This document shows, one piece after another, positions 6,635-21,795 of a DNA stretch of 64,000 nt. The notes under the pieces are model-generated. The model saw only the letters and a list, made by a program, of their open reading frames with translations, did not search any database and had not been told where the DNA came from. Source of the stretch: Acidimicrobiia bacterium. Its GTDB lineage: Bacteria > Actinomycetota > Acidimicrobiia > Spongiisociales > UBA5794. The DNA lies in NCBI GenBank assembly GCA_026985095.1, contig JALSQW010000018.1:87989-151988 (forward strand). Direction: 5' to 3'. Position numbers and translations under genes: made by a program. Within the stretch, counting starts at the first letter, position 1. The number at the start of each line of letters is the position of its first letter.

Positions 6635-7729
6635 TCACTCGACGACGTACAGGACACGGTCGGAGCGGTTGAGCCGCTCGACACCGTCGGCGGTGACCAC
6701 GACGATGTCCTCGAGGCGCATCCCCCACCGGCCCGCCATGTAGATCCCCGGTTCGATCGAGAAGGTCATGCCGGGCTCCAGGGCCGTGTCGGAACCCTCC
6801 ACGATGTACGGTGCTTCATGGGTCTCGAGGCCGATCCCGTGACCGGTCCGATGGATGAACGCCTCGCCGTATCCGGCCTCGGCGATCACCGTCCGGGCGG
6901 CCCGGTCGATGGCCCCGGCCGTCGCTCCCGGGCGGACCGCGGCGATGGCGGCCTCCTGGGCCCGACGCAGGGCCGCGTAGGCGGCGGACACCTCGGAAGT
7001 CGGCTCACCGACACACAAGGTGCGGGTGGAGTCGGACCGGTACCCGGCCATGCCGCCACCGATGTCGACGACGATGGTGTCTCCTGGGGCCATCACCCGG
7101 GATCCAGGCTCGTGATGCGGCGATGCGGCGTTGGGCCCGGAGGCGACGATCGTGAAATCGACCTCCTCGTGGCCGGAGGCGAGAAGGAGGTCCGCGATGA
7201 TCCTCGCCATCTCGCGCTCGGTGGTGCCGGAGAAGCGAAGGTCACGGAGCGACGCCATGGTCGCGTCGACCGCCGCCGCGACCGCCGCGAGCGCGGCCAG
7301 CTCTTCGGGGTCCTTCCGGATCCTCAGCGACCGCATGATCGGGTCGGCCGACGTGAACTCGACGCCGGGCATCCGGCGCTGGATGGCCAGGAGGAACCGG
7401 CTCCACGTCTGGGCGCCGATGGCGACGCGGTGAGCTCCATCGAGGAGCTCGGCGACGATGTCGATCGGATCGTCCGTCTCGGACCAGGTAACGACACGGA
7501 AGGCCGGGTCGGGAACGACTCGGGGGGCCTCGAGTTCGGGAACGACCAGTGCGGCAGCCGCCTGTGGCCGGACCACGAGCATCGTGAGGCGTTCCAAGGG
7601 TACGGCGCGGTAGCCGGTCAGGTAGGGCAGATCCGCTCCCACCGACAGGCCCATCGCGTCGACGCCATCATGCTGCATCGCAGCGATCGCTCTGGCGATC
7701 CGGTCGGCGTGGCGGGTCGGGTCGTTCAC
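6635..7729 (-). CDS. Xaa-Pro aminopeptidase-like M24 metallopeptidase
   Basis: Probably cleaves peptides with proline at the second position, or a related dipeptide. The 364 residues contain an N-terminal creatinase-like domain (about 1-130) and a pita-bread catalytic domain. The five metal ligands are visible: two Asp in VVDIGGGMAGYRSDSTRT, His in HRTGHGIG, and Glu in SIEPGIY and MRLEDIV. The GTG start at 7729 overlaps the LipB-LipA stop by 4 bp (GTGA), so it is translationally coupled to lipoate synthesis, although no functional link is known. Creatinase-like specificity cannot be excluded. Confidence 0.88.
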   Translation of the reverse strand: MNDPTRHADRIARAIAAMQHDGVDAMGLSVGADLPYLTGYRAVPLERLTMLVVRPQAAAALVVPELEAPRVVPDPAFRVVTWSETDDPIDIVAELLDGAHRVAIGAQTWSRFLLAIQRRMPGVEFTSADPIMRSLRIRKDPEELAALAAVAAAVDATMASLRDLRFSGTTEREMARIIADLLLASGHEEVDFTIVASGPNAASPHHEPGSRVMAPGDTIVVDIGGGMAGYRSDSTRTLCVGEPTSEVSAAYAALRRAQEAAIAAVRPGATAGAIDRAARTVIAEAGYGEAFIHRTGHGIGLETHEAPYIVEGSDTALEPGMTFSIEPGIYMAGRWGMRLEDIVVVTADGVERLNRSDRVLYVVE

Positions 7730-9378
7730 CGGGCGGCAGCGAGCGAGTCCCTGGCATGGTACGAGGACCGGACGAGCGGGCCGGCCTCGACGTGTGCCAG
7801 TCCGAGCCGCCGGCCTTCGGCCGCATAACGCTCGAACTCGGCGGGCTCGACGTACCGATGGACCCGACGGTGCCTGGGGGTCGGACGCAGGTACTGGCCG
7901 ATGGTGACGATGTCGACCCCGACGGCCCGGAGGTCGGCCAGCGCCCCCATGACCTCATCCTCGGTCTCACCCATGCCGACGATCAGTCCGGACTTGACCG
8001 TCCGCGTCGGGTCGTGCCGCTTCGCCCTGGCCAGGAGCGCCAGCGAGCGGCCGTAGTTCGCCGCGGTCCGGATGTCACGCTGCAGCCGCAGCACCGTCTC
8101 GGTGTTGTGGTTGAGCACCTCGGGTTTGGCGTCCAGCACCGTCTCGAGGGCCTCCAGATCGCCCTTGAAATCGGGGATGAGCACCTCGACGGCACAGTCT
8201 GGGATCCGATCCCTGATGGCCCTGATCGTCGCCGCGAAGATCCCGGCACCGCCATCGTCGAGGTCGTCGCGGTTGACCGAGGTCAACACGGCGTGCTGCA
8301 ACCCCATCGCCTCGACGGCGGCTGCGGCCCGGTCGGGCTCGCCGGTGTCGACGACCTCGGGCCGTCCGGTGGTGACGTCGCAGAAGGCGCAGGCTCTGGT
8401 GCACCGATCCCCGAGGAGCATGAGCGTCGCGGTGCCCGACTGCCAGCATTCGTAGATGTTCGGGCATCCCGCCTCCTCACAGACGGTGTTGAGGGACAGG
8501 TCGCTCATGAGCCGCTTCAGGTCCCGATACCCCTCCGTGCGGAGGTTCGCCTTGACCCGCATCCAATCGGGACGCTCGGGCTCACCCGCCAGCACGCCCC
8601 GGATCGTGATGGGCGTCTCGCTTCGGCGCTCGGGGGAGAACACCCCCGAGGCGACCATCTCGTCCACATCGAAGCGGCGCCCTCCCGCCCCTCGAGCGAA
8701 GGCGGCGAGCTGCACCTCGGGCTCGCCCGCCGACAGCGTCCCGAGGCGGGCCAGGAGGCAGGACACGACCTCCTCCACGTCGACGTCGCGTCCGAGCAGA
8801 GCCGTCAGCGACGTGACCGGCCGATCCGCGATGCCACACGGCACGATGTGCGAGAAGTACGACAGGTCGGGTGCGACGTTGAGGGAGAAGCCGTGCATCG
8901 AGACCCCGCGCGAGACCCGAACCCCTACCGCGGCGACCTTGCCGGCGACCGTCCACACCCCGGTGTAGCCGGGTTCGGTCCAGGCTTCGACCCCGAGGTC
9001 GGCGAGGGCCGCCACCAGCATCCGTTCGATGCGTCTCACGTGCCCGACGACGTCGAAGCCGGAGTCCAACCTGGGGACGGCCACGATCGGGTAGCCGACG
9101 AGCTGACCGGGGCCGTGGTAGGTGATGTCGCCTCCGCGGTCGACGGCGATGAGCTCGGCACCGAGCTCAACGAGACGATCGGGCTCGACGACGAGGTTCG
9201 ACCCGTCGCCGTTGCGTCCGACGGTGAAGGTGTGCGGGTGCTCGAGGAGGAACAGGTAGTCGTCGTCGATGTGCCCGACGGCGCGGGCGTCGTGGACGGC
9301 GCGCTGCAGGTCCCACGCCTCCCGGTACGGGAGGCGGCCGAGCCAACGGACCCGGAACCGCCCGGCGGGATCGGTCAC
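7726..9378 (-). CDS. lipB-lipA: Fused octanoyltransferase-lipoyl synthase (LipB-LipA)
   Basis: One 550-residue polypeptide carrying both steps of lipoyl cofactor assembly. Residues 1-225 are LipB, which moves octanoate from ACP to the E2 lysine. It has RGGDITYHGPGQLVGY at 81-96, Lys147 and the acyl-carrying Cys181. Residues about 255-550 are LipA, a radical-SAM enzyme inserting two sulfurs. Its auxiliary cluster cysteines are 300, 305 and 311, the CxxxCxxC cysteines are 326, 330 and 333, and RSSYHA is near the C-terminus. The frame is open throughout, with about 30 linker residues. GTG 9378 overlaps the E2 stop by 4 bp. LipB and LipA are normally separate proteins, so the fusion would couple octanoyl transfer and sulfur insertion next to their E2 substrate. 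Confidence 0.93.
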   Translation of the reverse strand: MTDPAGRFRVRWLGRLPYREAWDLQRAVHDARAVGHIDDDYLFLLEHPHTFTVGRNGDGSNLVVEPDRLVELGAELIAVDRGGDITYHGPGQLVGYPIVAVPRLDSGFDVVGHVRRIERMLVAALADLGVEAWTEPGYTGVWTVAGKVAAVGVRVSRGVSMHGFSLNVAPDLSYFSHIVPCGIADRPVTSLTALLGRDVDVEEVVSCLLARLGTLSAGEPEVQLAAFARGAGGRRFDVDEMVASGVFSPERRSETPITIRGVLAGEPERPDWMRVKANLRTEGYRDLKRLMSDLSLNTVCEEAGCPNIYECWQSGTATLMLLGDRCTRACAFCDVTTGRPEVVDTGEPDRAAAAVEAMGLQHAVLTSVNRDDLDDGGAGIFAATIRAIRDRIPDCAVEVLIPDFKGDLEALETVLDAKPEVLNHNTETVLRLQRDIRTAANYGRSLALLARAKRHDPTRTVKSGLIVGMGETEDEVMGALADLRAVGVDIVTIGQYLRPTPRHRRVHRYVEPAEFERYAAEGRRLGLAHVEAGPLVRSSYHARDSLAAAR

Positions 9379-10877
9379 GCCAGTTCCTGCTCCCAATCCC
9401 ACGTCTCGATCGTCTCTTTGATCCGGCGGAGGAAGAGCACCGCGGTGGAGCCGTCGAAGGCTCGGTGATCCCACGTGAGGCCGAGGATCCCGATGTGATG
9501 GATGGCGATCGCGTCGGTGCCGTCGGGGCCCTCGACCACCGTCGGTCGCTTCACCACCGTGTCGGTCGACAAGATGGCGACGTTGGGGAGGTTGAGGATG
9601 GGCACCGAGGTGAAGGAACCGAAGGGTCCCGGGTTGGTGATCGAGAACGTGCTGCCCGAGATGTCGTCGGGTTCGAGTCGGCCTTCCCTCGCCTTGCCGG
9701 CCTTGGCCCGGATCTCACGGGCGAGACCCTTGAGGGTGAGCCCGTCGGCGTTGGGGACGGTCACGACCACGAGGCCCTGTTGATCGAGATCCACGGCGAT
9801 GCCGAGGTTGACGACCGAGTGGAGCACCTGGACCCCTCGTTCCAGGTAGAACGAGCTGTTCACCGCGGGGAACGCCTTGAGCGCGTCGACGGTGGCCCTG
9901 GCGATGAACGGCAGGTAGGTGAGGGAGAACCCCTCCCGCTGCTTCCACTCGGCCTTGTGGGCCTGACGGATCCGCTCGACGTTCTCGTAGTCCACCTCGA
10001 CGGACGTCCACACGTGGGCGGTGGTGCGCTTGGTCTCGACCAGGTTCTCGGCGATCCGCTTCCGGAGGCGAGACAGGTCGACGACCTCGTCGCCTGGCAG
10101 GAGCGGGATGCCGGCGGGTGTCGACGACGGGGCCGATGCTGGAGCAGCCGGTGCGGCGGGAGGTGGCGGGGCCGTCGGGGCGGGGGGAGCCTCGGCCGAC
10201 CGGACCGCCGCCGGTGCGCTCGGCGTCGGGGGCGGCGCGGTCGTGGCGGTCGGTTCGGGTGCCTCGGCGGGAGCAGCGGGCGCGGGCTCCACGGTGACCT
10301 CGATCTGGGGGGCGACCGTCCCGCTCTCGATGACACGCTCGATGTCCTTGCGGGTGATCCGGCCGCCCTCGCCGGTGCCGGTCACCGTCTCGAGGTCGAT
10401 GCCATGCTCCGCGGCGAGTCGACGCACGACCGGCGACAGCAACATCGAACGGGCACCCGCGGGTCGCGGCGGGGCGGTTCCCGCAGGCGCCGGCGCGGCC
10501 GGCGCGGTCTCAGCCGGCGCGACCCCCGTCGGACCCGTCACCACCGGCGCAGCCTCGGCCGGCGCGACCCCCGTCGGACCCGTCACTACCGGCGCAGCCT
10601 CGGCCGGCGCAGCCTCGGTCGGCGCGGTCGATGCTTCACCGGACTCGGCGATGACCGCCAACGGCGTTCCCACCCCCACCGTTTCGCCTTCGGGCACGAG
10701 GATCTCCTGGAGGACCCCGGAGGCCGGCGACGGCACCTCGGTGTCGACCTTGTCCGTCGAGATCTCGAGGAGGACCTCGTCCTCGTCGATATGGTCCCCG
10801 GGCTGCTTCAGCCAGGCGAGGATCGTTCCTTCGGTGACGGTCTCACCGAGCTGGGGCATGGTCACGGTCACCGGCAT
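9375..10877 (-). CDS. Dihydrolipoamide acyltransferase (E2) of a 2-oxoacid dehydrogenase
   Basis: The core subunit that accepts the acyl group on a lipoyl arm and passes it to CoA. The 500-residue protein has an N-terminal lipoyl domain (about 2-76) with the modified lysine in STDKVDTE, an Ala/Pro linker containing a 15-residue tandem repeat, and an E3-binding domain (SPVVRRLAAEHGIDL onward). A second Ala/Pro linker follows, then the trimeric catalytic domain ending in the active-site motif DHRAFDG. ATG 10877 is chosen because the lipoyl domain begins there; upstream in-frame residues are not domain-like. Its neighbours are E1, E3 and LipB-LipA. Whether the substrate is pyruvate, branched-chain or another 2-oxoacid cannot be decided from sequence alone. 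Confidence 0.92.
   Translation of the reverse strand: MPVTVTMPQLGETVTEGTILAWLKQPGDHIDEDEVLLEISTDKVDTEVPSPASGVLQEILVPEGETVGVGTPLAVIAESGEASTAPTEAAPAEAAPVVTGPTGVAPAEAAPVVTGPTGVAPAETAPAAPAPAGTAPPRPAGARSMLLSPVVRRLAAEHGIDLETVTGTGEGGRITRKDIERVIESGTVAPQIEVTVEPAPAAPAEAPEPTATTAPPPTPSAPAAVRSAEAPPAPTAPPPPAAPAAPASAPSSTPAGIPLLPGDEVVDLSRLRKRIAENLVETKRTTAHVWTSVEVDYENVERIRQAHKAEWKQREGFSLTYLPFIARATVDALKAFPAVNSSFYLERGVQVLHSVVNLGIAVDLDQQGLVVVTVPNADGLTLKGLAREIRAKAGKAREGRLEPDDISGSTFSITNPGPFGSFTSVPILNLPNVAILSTDTVVKRPTVVEGPDGTDAIAIHHIGILGLTWDHRAFDGSTAVLFLRRIKETIETWDWEQELA
10516..10620. repeat. 45-bp tandem duplication in the E2 linker
   Basis: Copies at 10516-10560 and 10561-10605 differ at one base, and a 15-bp partial copy follows at 10606-10620. 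The unit keeps frame and adds 15 Ala/Pro/Thr-rich residues per copy to the flexible arm of E2. This looks like a recent in-frame expansion, not a mobile element. Confidence 0.85.
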
Positions 10878-10914
10878 CGGGATGTGCTCCTTCGCTGCTG
10901 TTTCGGTCGTCCCA

Positions 10915-12909
10915 TCAGATCGTGGAGAGCTCGCGCACGACGTCGGCGACGTCGTCCACCTGAGGAAGATACGCATCCTCGAGGACGGCGGCGAACGGGA
11001 TGTGCGTCATCGGAGGCGTGACCCGCCGCACCGGTGCGTCGAGATCCCAGAACAGTTCGTCGGCGACCCTGGCGGCGATCTCCGAACCGATCGACGCCAC
11101 CGGCACGTCCTCCTGCACGACCACCAGGCGTGAGGTCCTCGCCACCGACGAGAACACCGTCTCCCAGTCGATCGGCGCCACGGTGCGAAGATCGACCACC
11201 TCGACCGAGATGCCCTCGGAGGCGAGGGACTCGGCGGCCGCCAGACAGGTGTGCACCATCGCGGCCCAGGCGACGAGGGTGACGTCGGATCCGGATCTCG
11301 TGATCGTGGCCGTTCCCAACGGGATCTCGAAGTCCCCCTCGGGCACCGGCGCCTTGATGCTCCGATAGAGCTTCTTGTGCTCGAGGAACACCACCGGGTT
11401 CGGATCCCTGATGGCGGCCAGGAGCAGACCCTTGGCGTCGACCGGGTTCGACGGGCAGACCACCTTGAGGCCAGGATGATGCGCCACGAGGCCCTCCGGG
11501 CTCATCGAGTGGAACGGCCCGGCCCGGAGACCGGCCCCGCTGGGACCGCGGACGACCATCGGGACCGGATGTCCCGTCTTCCAGTAGTACTTGGCGGCCT
11601 CGTTGACGAGCTCGTCGAGACCGGGATAGATGAAATCGGTGTACTGGAGCTCGGCGATCGGTCGACGATCCATGAGCGCGCTCCCCACGGCCGCTCCGAT
11701 GATGGCGGACTCGGCGATGGGCGTGTCGACGACACGCCCGGCTCCGAAGCGATCGTAGATCCCGGCAGTGACCTTGAACGCTCCGCCGAAAGGCCCGACG
11801 TCTTCACCGAGGAGGAACACCCGCTCGTCGCGTTCCATCTCCTCCACCATGGCCGAGCGGATCGCGTCGAGCATCGTGACCGGCTCACCCGAAGCCGGCC
11901 GCGGCTCGGGAGCGCGGGGTCCGGTCCGTGGAGCGAAGACGTCCGTCGCCACCGTCCCGGGATCCGGATCGGGACGGGACTGTGCCCATTCGATGGCAGC
12001 CTTGACCCGCCGCGACACCTCGTCGGCGATCCGCAGGATCTGTTCGTCGTCGAGGATGCCTTCGTCGATGAGGAGGCTCTCGAAACGGGCGATCGGGTCG
12101 CGCTCGAGCCAGCGTTCCCGCACCTCGGGATCGACGTAGTCGGCGGGGTCGTGGCCGGCGTGGCCGAAGTGACGGAAGGTGACGGCCTCGATCAGCGACG
12201 GTCCACCGCCGCCTCGAGCTCGCTCGACGGCTTCGGCGGCGGCGTTGTAGCAGGCCACGACATCGTTGCCGTCGATGACCGAGTGCGGGATGCCGTACCC
12301 TTGGCCCCGATCGGCGAAGTGCTCGAGCCGGGTCTCCCGCTCGTTGGGGGTCGAGTAGGCGTACTGGTTGTTCTGCACGGTGAACACGACCGGGAGCTGG
12401 AGCACGGCGGCGGTGTTGACGGCCTCGTGCCAGGTTCCGGTGGCGGTCGCACCTTCGCCGCAATCGGCCAACGCCACCCGATCCTCGCCGCGCTGGCGGA
12501 AGGCCAACGCGCATCCGACGGCGACGGGGTAGGCGTCGGGCAGGGGGGAGATGACCATCAACGTGCCCTTCTCCAGGACCCCGAAATGGCTGTTGCCGTC
12601 CCGCCCCTTCGTCGGCGACTCGGCCTTCCCGAAGAAGTTCAGCAGGGTCTCTTCGATGGTCACGCCCTTGGTGAGCTGCATCATGAGATCCCGATGGGTC
12701 CCCCCGAACACGTCGCGAGCTTCGAGCGCCGACGCGAACCCGACCTGCGCGGCCTCTTGACCGACACCGGGGTAGACGGCACCACCCAGGCGGCCTCCCC
12801 GGTACATGTTGTGCAGCCTCGTCTCGAGCGTACGCCCGAGCACCATCAGCTCGTACATCTGCCGGAGCCGATCGGCACCGAGTTCGGCTGCGGGTCCTAC
12901 GAGTTGCAT
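10915..12909 (-). CDS. Fused E1 alpha-beta 2-oxoacid dehydrogenase
   Basis: A thiamine-diphosphate decarboxylase that starts the complex reaction. The 664-residue protein joins an alpha half (about 1-330) and a beta half (about 343-664), which are separate subunits in many alpha2-beta2 E1 enzymes. The ThDP/Mg motif runs from GEGATATG (151-158) to NN (180-181). The beta half opens with TMLDAIRSAMVEEMERDERV and contains GEDVGPFGGAFKVT. ATG 12909 follows GAGGAG, 9 nt after the E3 stop. An open frame continues to 13026, but that part overlaps lpd and is not E1-like. Alpha-beta fusions are known in other bacteria. Branched-chain or pyruvate specificity is unresolved. Confidence 0.92.
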   Translation of the reverse strand: MQLVGPAAELGADRLRQMYELMVLGRTLETRLHNMYRGGRLGGAVYPGVGQEAAQVGFASALEARDVFGGTHRDLMMQLTKGVTIEETLLNFFGKAESPTKGRDGNSHFGVLEKGTLMVISPLPDAYPVAVGCALAFRQRGEDRVALADCGEGATATGTWHEAVNTAAVLQLPVVFTVQNNQYAYSTPNERETRLEHFADRGQGYGIPHSVIDGNDVVACYNAAAEAVERARGGGGPSLIEAVTFRHFGHAGHDPADYVDPEVRERWLERDPIARFESLLIDEGILDDEQILRIADEVSRRVKAAIEWAQSRPDPDPGTVATDVFAPRTGPRAPEPRPASGEPVTMLDAIRSAMVEEMERDERVFLLGEDVGPFGGAFKVTAGIYDRFGAGRVVDTPIAESAIIGAAVGSALMDRRPIAELQYTDFIYPGLDELVNEAAKYYWKTGHPVPMVVRGPSGAGLRAGPFHSMSPEGLVAHHPGLKVVCPSNPVDAKGLLLAAIRDPNPVVFLEHKKLYRSIKAPVPEGDFEIPLGTATITRSGSDVTLVAWAAMVHTCLAAAESLASEGISVEVVDLRTVAPIDWETVFSSVARTSRLVVVQEDVPVASIGSEIAARVADELFWDLDAPVRRVTPPMTHIPFAAVLEDAYLPQVDDVADVVRELSTI

Positions 12910-12917
12910 CGGTCTCC

Positions 12918-14288
12918 TCAGTGCAGCGGGCGTCCGGCGGCGGCGAGCAGGGTCTCCCCGATGGCCTCCGACACGGTGGGGTGAGCATGGACGAACGATG
13001 CCGCCTCGGTCGGGAGCGCCTCCCAACCGACGACGTACATGAGCTCGTGGATGAGTTCACCCGCGGACGGGTCCACCACGGTGGCGCCCAGCACGGGCCC
13101 GTTCCTCTCGGCCACGATCTTGACGAGCCCGCCCGTCTCGCCGTGGATGATGGCCCGACCGATCCCGCGCATCCCGTGTGACGTGACCTCCACGTCGTAG
13201 CCTCGTTCACGGGCGCCGGCCTCGGTGAGCCCCACCTGGGCCACCTCGGGGTGGGTGTAGACGACCATCGGCACCGCCCGGTAGTCGACCGGGGCCGGAA
13301 CGCCGGTGGCGATGTGGGTGATGGCGGCCATCCCCTCGGCGAAGCCGACGTGGGCCAGCTGCGGGGTTCCGGCGACGATGTCACCGACGGCGTAGACGCC
13401 GGGTTTCGAGGTCTGCATCGTCTCGAGGTCGACGGTGACGAACCCGCGGTCCATCGCGATGCCGGCCTCGGCGATCCCGGCTCCTTCGGTGAACGGCGCC
13501 CGCCCGGTGGCGACGAGGACGACATCGACCTCGACCGCGTCGTCGCCGAAGGGCACCACGACGCCCCCGTCGGTGAACCGTGCCGGGTCGACGCGGACTC
13601 CGGTCCTCACCTTCACCTTCTTCTTCTTGAACGATCGTTCGACCGCCTTGGCCGCCTCGGGCTCCATTCCTGGCAGGATCTGGTCGACCATCTCGAACAG
13701 GTGCACCTCGGAGCCGACGTCGGCGAGGAGCGAGGCGAACTCGGCTCCGATCGCGCCCGCTCCGACGATCGCGACGCGATCGGGACGTCGGTCCCAATCG
13801 AGGGCGTGGGTCGAGGTGACGACGCGCTCACCGTCGATGTCGTAGCCGGGGATCGACTGTGGCACCGACCCGGTGGCCAGGATCACGTGACGCCCTTCGA
13901 GCAGCTCAGTCGATCCGTCGTCGGCGCGCACCTCGACGCCGCCGCCGACCAACCGCCCGAAGCCGCTCCTCACGTCGGCACCGCGGGACGCCAGGAGGCC
14001 GGACAGGCCCTTGACGAGGCCATCGACCACCTTGGTCTTGCGGGCTCGTGCGGCACCCCAGTCGAGCTGCGGCGCGGAGGTCTCGACACCGAACTCCCCG
14101 GCGCGGCCGATCATCGAGTAGACCGCCGCGGTCTCCAGCCAGGTCTTGGCGGGGATGCATCCGCGCAGCAGGCAGGTCCCCCCGACTCGTTCCTTGGTGA
14201 CCAGCGCCGTCGACAGGCCGAAGTTGTGGGCGTAGAGCGCGGCGGCATAGCCGCCGGGTCCTCCGCCGATGATGACGACGTCGTACAC
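12918..14288 (-). CDS. lpdA: Dihydrolipoyl dehydrogenase (E3)
   Basis: A flavoprotein that re-oxidises dihydrolipoyl groups with NAD. The 456 residues contain the FAD site GGGPGGYAAA (8-17), the redox pair C39/C44 in GGTCLLRGCIPAK, an NAD-binding GAGAIGAEFAS and the C-terminal dimer-interface motif HAHPTVSEAIGE with the catalytic His/Glu. GTG 14288 follows GGAGG. It is the first gene of the long minus-strand run encoding the whole complex (E3, E1, E2) plus lipoate assembly. The operon promoter should lie between 14289 and 14356, facing the small plus-strand gene. Confidence 0.94.
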   Translation of the reverse strand: MYDVVIIGGGPGGYAAALYAHNFGLSTALVTKERVGGTCLLRGCIPAKTWLETAAVYSMIGRAGEFGVETSAPQLDWGAARARKTKVVDGLVKGLSGLLASRGADVRSGFGRLVGGGVEVRADDGSTELLEGRHVILATGSVPQSIPGYDIDGERVVTSTHALDWDRRPDRVAIVGAGAIGAEFASLLADVGSEVHLFEMVDQILPGMEPEAAKAVERSFKKKKVKVRTGVRVDPARFTDGGVVVPFGDDAVEVDVVLVATGRAPFTEGAGIAEAGIAMDRGFVTVDLETMQTSKPGVYAVGDIVAGTPQLAHVGFAEGMAAITHIATGVPAPVDYRAVPMVVYTHPEVAQVGLTEAGARERGYDVEVTSHGMRGIGRAIIHGETGGLVKIVAERNGPVLGATVVDPSAGELIHELMYVVGWEALPTEAASFVHAHPTVSEAIGETLLAAAGRPLH

Positions 14289-14356
14289 GGTTCCTCCGGG
14301 GATGGGTATCGTCGCGAGACTAGTGGACCCTCGGGTCGCTCGCCGACGCCCCCGGG

Positions 14357-14362
14357 TACCAT
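14357..14362 (+). promoter_or_regulatory. Leaderless -10 element (TACCAT)
   Basis: TACCAT ends 6 nt before ATG 14369 and no Shine-Dalgarno sequence precedes that ATG. This is the TANNNT layout of leaderless actinobacterial transcripts. Confidence 0.55.
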
Positions 14363-14368
14363 GCGCCG

Positions 14369-14455
14369 ATGCAGACCCGGTACCTGATCCTCGTGTCGCT
14401 CGTCGCAGCGCTGGCCATCCTCGTCGCCGCTGCGCTGTGGTTCACGGGCTTGTAA
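14369..14455 (+). CDS. 28-residue single-span membrane peptide
   Basis: A short ORF, ATG to TAA, encoding a peptide that is one hydrophobic helix: it begins MQTRYLILVS and ends WFTGL. It is preceded by a well-placed -10 hexamer and no Shine-Dalgarno, consistent with leaderless translation. The next gene starts at GTG 14462, only 6 nt after the stop, also without a ribosome binding site, which suggests reinitiation or coupling. Function unknown. It could be a genuine small membrane protein or a translated leader. Confidence rests on promoter position, composition and spacing, not on recognised homologues. Confidence 0.5.
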   Translation: MQTRYLILVSLVAALAILVAAALWFTGL

Positions 14456-14461
14456 CGCCCC

Positions 14462-14842
14462 GTGACCGCCTTCGCCGTGCCTCCCGCCGAGCGGTACGCC
14501 CTCATCGAGGGCGAGATCGTGGTGGCGTTCACCGACCGACCGCCGGAGCACCACCACCTCGCCGTCATCCCAGGGGAGCCTCTCCCGCTCGACGCCCTGA
14601 AGCCCGCGTACCGGAGATGGTGCGGGATCGAGCTCCCCGACGACGGCGTCGAAGCGGAGGTGGTGAGCACCGACGACCTGGCCCTCTTCGACCCGGCTCA
14701 GGTATTCGCCCGGCACCTGCGGATCGACCTGCCGGCGTCCGGCCAGCTCGTGGTGCTCCGGGTCCGGGTCCACGGCCGCGAGGTGCTGTCGGACGTGGCC
14801 TTCGGCGCCCGCGTTCGGGCCGTGACCACGGCCATGCGATGA
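14462..14842 (+). CDS. Hypothetical protein, 126 aa
   Basis: Not recognised. A mixed alpha/beta, soluble-looking protein with a His pair in PPEHHHLAV, an internal Trp-Cys in YRRWCGIELP and a C-terminal RVRVHGREVLSDV strand-rich region. There is no signal peptide or membrane span. GTG 14462 is 6 nt after the 28-residue membrane peptide, and the stop overlaps the ATG of the alpha/beta hydrolase (ATGA). The three genes therefore probably form one transcript. Codon use is like its neighbours. No function is proposed. Confidence 0.7.
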   Translation: MTAFAVPPAERYALIEGEIVVAFTDRPPEHHHLAVIPGEPLPLDALKPAYRRWCGIELPDDGVEAEVVSTDDLALFDPAQVFARHLRIDLPASGQLVVLRVRVHGREVLSDVAFGARVRAVTTAMR

Positions 14843-15492
14843 CGACCTTCGATCTGACCACCGCCGACGGCCTCCGCCTCGAGGCACGTTGGGACGTGGC
14901 GGACGACCCGCTGGGTACGGTCGTGCTGTGCCATCCCCATCCACTGCATGGCGGCACGATGACGGCTCCGTTGATGGGAGCGATCACCGACGTCCTCGTC
15001 GAGCACCGACTGTCGGTGCTCCGGTTCAACTTCCGAGGTGTCGGCGGATCGGAGGGCTCTCACGGCGGCGGCGAAGCCGAACTCCTCGACATCGACGCCG
15101 CGACGGACGCCGCCGCCGCGGCCTACCAGGATCTCCCATCGGCGCTGTCGGGGTGGTCGTTCGGGGCCGCGACGGCATTACGGTGGTCGGCGGTGCGGCG
15201 ATCGGCGCGCCCGTATGTCGGCGTCGCTCCACCGGTCCGTTCCGAGCTGACCCCGTGGCTTCCCGCTCCCGACGAGCTCGAGCCCGCCCACCGCAGCTTC
15301 GTCGTCGGCGAGCGAGACCAGTTCGTGCCGGTGGCGGACCTGGAGGCGTACGCACGGGCCATCGGAGCCGCGGTGCACGTGATCGCCGGAAGCGATCACT
15401 TCTTCTACTTCCGGGAGCGACGTGTCGGTGAGCTCGTCGCCGCCGACCTATCGGCGGCGATGGACGAACCCGCGGTTGGCGGCCTCCGGTAG
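14839..15492 (+). CDS. Alpha/beta-hydrolase superfamily protein (COG2945-like)
   Basis: A predicted serine hydrolase of 217 residues. It has the family opening HPHPLHGGTM (oxyanion region), the nucleophile elbow GWSFG and a C-terminal catalytic histidine in GSDHFFYF; the acid is probably in GERDQFVP. This short lidless hydrolase group has no well-established substrate. ATG 14839 overlaps the previous stop (ATGA). Its 3' end overlaps the convergent 69-aa gene by 45 bp. The in-frame region upstream of 14839 is ignored because it overlaps two better-supported genes. Confidence 0.85.
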   Translation: MTTFDLTTADGLRLEARWDVADDPLGTVVLCHPHPLHGGTMTAPLMGAITDVLVEHRLSVLRFNFRGVGGSEGSHGGGEAELLDIDAATDAAAAAYQDLPSALSGWSFGAATALRWSAVRRSARPYVGVAPPVRSELTPWLPAPDELEPAHRSFVVGERDQFVPVADLEAYARAIGAAVHVIAGSDHFFYFRERRVGELVAADLSAAMDEPAVGGLR

Positions 15493-15657
15493 CGTGTCGG
15501 GTCCGAACGCCTGCAGGAGATCCCGATCGAGCAGATCGTCCTCGACCGCTCGGGTGGACAGCTCCGCGAACTCCTCGGGCTCGTCGCAGTCGTAGACCCG
15601 CATCGTGTCACGGGTCCCGACGAACCGATGTTCCTCGAAGCGCGCGAGTCGAGCCAT
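15448..15657 (-). CDS. Small conserved-looking protein, 69 aa
   Basis: A soluble acidic small protein (MARLARFEEHRFVGTRDTMR at the start, later EEFAELSTRAVEDDLLDR and PEAANRGF). I do not know its function. It is likely real because ATG 15657 has a TANNNT -10 element exactly 7 nt upstream. It overlaps the end of the alpha/beta hydrolase on the other strand. Confidence 0.65.
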   Translation of the reverse strand: MARLARFEEHRFVGTRDTMRVYDCDEPEEFAELSTRAVEDDLLDRDLLQAFGPDTLPEAANRGFVHRRR

Positions 15658-21789: not shown

Positions 21790-21795
21790 TATTCT
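21790..21795 (+). promoter_or_regulatory. Leaderless -10 element (TATTCT)
   Basis: TATTCT ends 6 nt before ATG 21802 of sufC1, with no Shine-Dalgarno. Confidence 0.6.

Follow-up and report, generated by a model that had tools for sequence, protein, structure and literature searches.

A conserved, apparently leaderless 28-residue membrane protein encoded beside the dihydrolipoyl dehydrogenase gene in Acidimicrobiia

The open reading frame (ORF) at 14369–14455 on the forward strand of the analysed window, a 64,000-nucleotide stretch of DNA from a member of the Acidimicrobiia, almost certainly encodes a real and conserved membrane protein, judging from its homologues, its invariant residues and its low ratio of non-synonymous to synonymous differences (pN/pS). 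The frame runs from ATG at 14369 to TAA at 14453–14455, and its product, MQTRYLILVSLVAALAILVAAALWFTGL, consists of 28 residues that form a single hydrophobic helix. It is the founding sequence of a family that is absent from the libraries searched and is new, its general kind, single-helix membrane proteins, being already known. The original prediction had described this ORF and its helix; both coordinates and length hold, and the conservation proves to be class-wide. We favour, at slightly less than even confidence, the reading that the peptide is expressed without a leader, spans the membrane as one helix with its N-terminus inside, and serves a larger membrane complex as an accessory protein, with cytochrome oxidase as the leading candidate partner.

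The peptide gene lies opposite the start of lpd, as had been predicted, and the two are separated by a divergent intergenic region of 80 bp (14289–14368). The lpd gene (12918–14288, reverse strand) starts at 14288 with a GTG preceded by GGAGGA, and its product scores 438.7 bits against TIGR01350, whose cut-off is 408.8, identifying it as a true dihydrolipoyl dehydrogenase (E3). The reverse strand also carries a mechanically called ORF (10915–13026, with a true start that lies further in) that joins the alpha and beta parts of pyruvate dehydrogenase E1; the beta part matches NF006667 above its cut-off and the alpha part matches TIGR03181 at E 3.6e-82, below its cut-off. E1 is likewise a single ORF at locus L215 (668 aa) of f12, the OCS155/Actinomarina family. 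An E2 acyltransferase ORF, likewise mechanical, spans 9375–10976 on the reverse strand and matches TIGR02927 (SucB_Actino) at E 4.1e-114, below that cut-off. A 582-aa ORF at 7726–9474 on the same strand contains LipB and LipA, with TIGR00214/NF010925 and TIGR00510/NF004019 both above cut-off, and is possibly a fusion of the two. On the forward strand, a gene for a 126-aa protein (d126, 14462–14842) begins with GTG 6 nt after the peptide stop and has no Shine-Dalgarno-like stretch before its start, in agreement with the original prediction; searches of d126 against Pfam, NCBIfam and PHROGs gave no match at E≤1. It is followed by an alpha/beta hydrolase gene (abh, 14839–15492, forward; PF12146 and PF20408 above cut-off), which is frequent downstream of the peptide within the order, and by a gene on the reverse strand (15448–15657) for a conserved 69-aa protein (p5, MARLARFEEHRFVGTRDTMRVYDCD...), which is kept in 66/161 fetched loci from 8 families and gave no Pfam match at E≤1.

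Homologues of the peptide extend across the class. With the 28 residues as the query, 55 of 60 relatives gave matches at E≤10, and relatives outside the genus were found at E-values from 1.7e-7, the best, to 1e-4. A first profile (A1, 33 rows) matched 224 of 296 class genomes at E≤0.1, and a class-wide profile (A2, 35 rows) matched 222 of the 296 Acidimicrobiia genomes at E≤1e-3, with a single copy in all but two of those 222. It is carried by 14 of the 16 f12 genomes in the sample, which are about 1 Mb in size and belong to the Candidatus Actinomarina/OCS155 group. One genome of f14 (G173; loci L188 and L189) shows three peptide matches on two contigs, and its assembly is listed as 6% contaminated. 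Against a phylum sample of 396 genomes, A2 gave 47 matches at E≤0.01, of which 41 fall within the class; the remaining six (best 4.1e-4) align only in part, within longer frames. No full-length A2 match at E≤0.01 came from the approximately 336 phylum genomes sampled outside the class, a number obtained as 396 less 41 and less 19 class genomes without a match, and dependent on the order of that listing. Two member loci labelled Acidobacteria and Armatimonadetes are taken for misnamed bins. As far as sampled, the family is limited to Acidimicrobiia. The loci compared below number 161: 49 of the 55 genomes matched by the 28-residue query, leaving out six weak, non-family matches (G030, G068, G052, G059, G072 and G065), and 112 fetched profile matches, which are not every profile match (G085, for example, was left out).

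The original prediction could have failed if relatives that keep the downstream genes lacked the ORF, and this comparison instead found the peptide conserved. The d126 gene has homologues in just 11 of the 50 family genomes compared and is not kept together with the peptide, as against a peptide match at E≤0.001 in 27 of 37 family genomes; some of the ten family genomes without such a query match were recovered by the profile (G007, G045 and G047). The d126 protein evolves fast, being 66% identical in a same-genus relative (G037) whose peptide is 100% identical. In G037, the nearest relative, the peptide ORF carries five base differences, all of them synonymous.

T3 and L6 are invariant in 161/161 fetched loci, R4 and I17 are each kept in 159/161, a TR.L motif opens the protein in 159/161, and position 20 is A, G or S throughout; the loci were chosen by similarity, which partly builds in the conservation at some positions. 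Small residues reach a weighted frequency of 1.00 at position 10 and 0.95 at position 14. Conservation has a helical period that peaks at 100–103 degrees, with a shuffle p of 0.03 over residues 3–26 and over residues 5–26, and of 0.22 over residues 6–25. The short forms, of 28–36 residues, make up 141/161 loci, and the other 20 are longer (19 loci of family f9, and one of 63 residues). Because the first six residues carry a net charge of +1 or +2 in 141/141 short forms, the positive-inside rule predicts a cytoplasmic N-terminus, and we infer an orientation with the N-terminus inside and the C-terminus outside.

Selection acts on the encoded protein. In a comparison of 57 independent pairs, the coding frame has a pN/pS of 0.18 and the two alternative frames have 1.28 and 3.57; the differences fall 184/74/531 on codon positions 1/2/3. 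The flanks of these pairs, compared ungapped, have pN/pS of 0.95 and 0.98, and there the three codon positions share the differences evenly. The contrast in identity (83% in the ORF vs 46–48% in the flanks) is overstated, since pairs were selected for 70–98.5% ORF identity and the flanks were left ungapped; the codon-position pattern is unaffected by pair selection. These comparisons show that the ORF codes for a protein and that purifying selection on this protein is strong. A chance ORF was considered and is rejected by the homologues, the codon-position pattern and the class-wide profile matches.

A long form is found in 19/19 loci of family f9, one of them cut by a contig end (examples are L199, L177–L180 and L200–L205). 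It comprises about 140 residues, in which the helix is followed by some 110 more. An alignment of 17 long forms has 14 invariant positions, the helix included, and those in the added part include two cysteines, R131 and W138. Searches of the long form against Pfam, NCBIfam and PDB profiles found none that explains it; the best E from the family libraries was 0.014, with none above cut-off. The added f9 domain would lie outside and bear a disulphide; the position of the added residues and the two invariant cysteines after the helix fits a C-terminus outside.

The peptide gene appears to be transcribed without a leader. A TACCAT hexamer at 14357–14362 on the forward strand, of the TANNNT type of −10 box and inferred to be a leaderless promoter, is separated from the ATG by a 6-nt spacer (14363–14368), where the original prediction had placed it. 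Across genomes, a TANNNT box stands 6–9 nt upstream of the start in 120/161, compared with a mean of 8.9 and a maximum of 17 in 200 shuffles and 7/161 at control positions; it is missing at that distance in 41/161. Shine-Dalgarno-like 4-mers are not enriched before the start (19/161 vs 22.2 in shuffles), and the start codons are ATG in 101 loci, GTG in 59 and TTG in 1. No −35 element beyond shuffles was found in 103 non-redundant promoters, nor by a sigma-70 scan. The conserved TANNNT spacing without a Shine-Dalgarno excess supports the leaderless promoter of the original prediction and suggests that the peptide mRNA is itself leaderless. Within the 64-kb window, TANNNT-N6-ATG occurs 7 times against 1.47 expected, a count reached in 0/100 shuffles, and the layout is therefore a habit of the source genome. 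Other such places in the window, for example at 21790 (+), 42321 (+) and 16835 (−), point to further leaderless genes. In mycobacteria, leaderless first ORFs of transcripts are reported to be common (PMC4633059).

The most constant feature of the gene's surroundings is lpd, which adjoins the peptide in 144/161 loci, divergently within 700 bases in 95 and co-directionally downstream within 1 kb in 49, and is its commonest neighbour (145 genomes in the neighbour count). Divergent lpd is seen in families f1–f4, f6–f8, f11–f13 and f15, and co-directional lpd in f9, f10, f14, f17–f19, f24, f27–f29, f31, f36, f38, f40, f47, f49 and f57. The neighbouring lpd exceeds the TIGR01350 cut-off in 4/4 genomes scanned (the window and one each from f9, f18 and f12), the E2 of the f9 example is above the SucB_Actino cut-off, and a LipB-like sequence is next in many loci of the neighbour survey. 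An adjacent lpd is lacking in 17/161 loci, 14 of them without lpd in the stretch examined and three with a match elsewhere; the match in G245 is a 35% relative and not a clear lpd. Six of these 17 loci are at contig ends, and the remaining eleven departures comprise four of f5, three of which span only 0.5–1.1 kb upstream, together with G005, G057, G136, G138, G245, G247 and G305. The gene downstream of the peptide varies by lineage and may be d126, abh, an MBL-fold gene, lpd or an opposing gene, and L174 has the peptide gene, between lpd and abh, in the orientation opposite to the usual one. Since the downstream gene varies and lpd occurs in both orientations, the peptide is not a leader for one gene. 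The original prediction was correct and understated its case, the class-wide range, the linkage to lpd in both orientations and the long form all lying beyond its view.

The peptide can be lost. In 17 genomes an intact lpd with 400 bases or more of upstream sequence has no peptide gene beside it, and the loss lineages are g13 (f1), g23/g33 (f4), g35 (f8), f16, f23, f25 and f41, some of which retain abh or p5. A search by motif and hydropathy for a family-type short ORF upstream of lpd found none in 20 match-less loci, 17 of which have at least 400 nt upstream. Among 28 match-less genomes, 4 have no lpd at cut-off and others have only 34–36% paralogues or an lpd at a contig end; with lpd missing, paralogous or at a contig end, some absences of the peptide are therefore assembly gaps.

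The distribution of these losses provides a lead to a partner. Three respiratory families were compared post hoc in a set of 44 genomes, of which 30 have the peptide and 14 lack it. NuoH is present in 44/44 and is uninformative. CydA (PF01654) is present in 20/44 and was rejected as a partner, being found in 9/14 peptide-less vs 11/30 peptide-bearing genomes, with no co-distribution, and absent from the source genome. COX1 is present in 41/44, and the three genomes without it (G052, G112 and G233) all lack the peptide; G028 and G029 have weaker COX1 types only. In a tree of 20 COX1 proteins, clade A (G000a, G008, G072, G115, G094 and G138; support 94/78) contains G000a, which is CtaD by TIGR02891. 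Clade B (G122a, G190, G083a and G168) comes from peptide-less genomes, and G080, from a peptide-bearing genome, stands beside it (81/89). A clade-A profile run over the 296 genomes gave best E-values mostly below 1e-250 or from 1e-200 to 1e-144, and with clade-A CtaD called at E<1e-250 it is present in 200/222 genomes with the peptide and in 16/74 without. Ten of those 16 were inspected: nine have no usable lpd upstream region and one, G072, is a true absence, the peptide being missing although clade-A CtaD is present and the region upstream of lpd is intact. The 22/222 peptide bearers without a clear clade-A CtaD belong to f1 (g2, g18 and g19), f11 and f13 or are single genomes, and three bearers (G041, G048 and G184) give no match at all to the CtaD profile. 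Among seven sampled peptide-less genomes of g13, g23 and g35, 0/7 match that profile.

On a tree of 154 leaves, peptide and clade-A CtaD are both present in 125, the peptide alone in 11, CtaD alone in 1 and neither in 17, and Pagel's dependent model is preferred (LR 33.5, 4 df, p 1e-6); the tree is that of the lpd gene and not of the species, with G264 dropped and intermediate scores counted as present. Clade-A CtaD is missing from most members of five of the six peptide-loss clades. Simulation of the oxidase trait gives weaker support, with p 0.038 when unconditioned (0.020 with a laxer count), 0/1932 among runs conditioned to have about as many leaves lacking CtaD-A, and p 0.07 for the three losses of the own order taken by themselves. 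The two-by-two contrast owes much to f16, f23 and related families and may reflect few events. No cta gene is among the conserved neighbours of the peptide. In G000 and G094, CtaD is encoded on a different contig or at a distance of about 1 Mb. Lineages that lose the oxidase may drop other aerobic functions as well, and another aerobic partner would give the same pattern. An aa3-type haem-copper cytochrome c oxidase with the clade-A type of CtaD is therefore a tentative candidate for the peptide's partner, a lead that we hold at distinctly less than even confidence.

Comparison with known families supports the original description of the peptide as an unlisted membrane protein, conserved and without a significant match in Pfam, NCBIfam or PHROGs. 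Short-form members scanned against these three libraries reached a best E of 0.024, none above cut-off, a PDB sequence-profile search reached 0.53 with A2 and 1.1 with a further profile, A3, and a literature search on the peptide family found no paper. CcoS is built as one helix. The peptide is small like CcoS (TIGR00847, cbb3 oxidase assembly), which is the commonest of six sub-threshold echoes, in 2/35 members; unlike a true CcoS, its best TIGR00847 E is only 0.057, and TIGR03063 is stronger in one member (0.024). CydX of E. coli, the small subunit of cytochrome bd, is described as having 37 residues. Like CydX, the peptide has one helix and would be an accessory of a terminal oxidase if the oxidase lead is true; unlike it, three short and four long members gave no PF08173 match at E≤1, and the peptide is not co-distributed with cydA. 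Its single short helix also recalls AcrZ, described as making a lateral contact, and YohP (27 aa), which reportedly forms dimers through a glycine motif and alters the membrane (PMC12719787); it differs from these and from other E. coli small membrane proteins in matching none of their models at the thresholds applied, in its class and in the adjacent lpd. With the mycobacterial leaderless small proteins, as reported in PMC4633059, it shares small size, a first-ORF position and an ATG or GTG at the presumed transcript start; that set was derived from transcript ends and ribosome profiling, whereas the peptide's layout is deduced from the TANNNT box and conservation.

The linkage to lpd could also mean that the peptide serves the pyruvate or 2-oxoglutarate dehydrogenase complex, either as one of its small subunits or as a regulator, its helix anchoring E3 or the whole complex at the membrane by way of the short cytoplasmic start with its TR. 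The constancy of this neighbour, in 95 divergent and 49 co-directional arrangements, and the near-invariance of T3 and R4 at the cytoplasmic edge would suit such an anchor. We nevertheless regard it as unlikely, because a soluble complex of very large size would have to be held by just four or five cytoplasmic residues, several lineages retain lpd and E2 after losing the peptide, and the gene has stayed conserved after leaving lpd in f5 and a few other cases.

TisB and Hok are small type I toxins with a single hydrophobic helix, and the peptide resembles them in size and build. A hydrophobic toxin of a type I toxin-antitoxin system nonetheless has next to no chance of being the right reading, given a gene that is single copy in all but two of the matched genomes, fixed beside a housekeeping gene, present in the f12 genomes of about 1 Mb and strictly conserved in its residues. 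A regulatory leader peptide, an upstream ORF whose translation controls the following gene, would account for an apparently leaderless ORF directly before other genes, and leaderless first ORFs are reported as common in mycobacteria (PMC4633059); this is very improbable when residue conservation spans the whole helix at the pN/pS given above, the downstream gene differs among lineages and the gene is inverted in L174. The peptide might instead act alone on lipids or membrane state, self-oligomerising like YohP without a fixed partner and lying next to lpd by inherited synteny. With small residues at positions 10 and 14, a small-xxx-small pattern, self-association would be possible, and YohP with its glycine-motif dimer is a reported precedent (PMC12719787), but near-absolute T3, R4, L6 and I17 exceed the apparent need of a lipid role, and loss is correlated with clade-A CtaD; we consider a self-acting role improbable.

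An accessory helix within a larger membrane complex is, in contrast to these alternatives, the peptide's probable mode of action. In this proposal the mRNA would begin at the start codon, with leaderless expression from the TANNNT box, and the helix would insert with the N-terminus in and the C-terminus out. Its conserved face (T3, L6, S/A10, G/A14, I17 and A20) would pack against a helix of the partner. By analogy with CydX or AcrZ, the peptide would be an accessory subunit or an assembly or stability factor, and not an enzyme, a toxin or a leader. Its location beside the 2-oxoacid dehydrogenase/lipoate cluster may tie it to aerobic central metabolism.

The boldest form of this proposal, possible and in our view doubtful, is that the aa3-type oxidase of Acidimicrobiia has the peptide as a core, leaderless small subunit or as an assembly factor, coded beside the E3 gene and apart from the oxidase genes. 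If true, electron supply and terminal oxidase would be made together, a class-defining respiratory subunit would have been overlooked at 28 residues, and one family (f9) would have grown a disulphide-bearing outer domain on an oxidase subunit. The correlated loss with one type of CtaD makes a direct experiment possible. The peptide offers a test case for the role of single-helix proteins, for the core proteome hidden by short-ORF cut-offs where leaderless genes are common, and for a small respiratory subunit coded away from its complex. A protein of 28–30 residues that is nearly unvarying across a class, genomes of about 1 Mb included, probably matters to these mostly uncultured bacteria.
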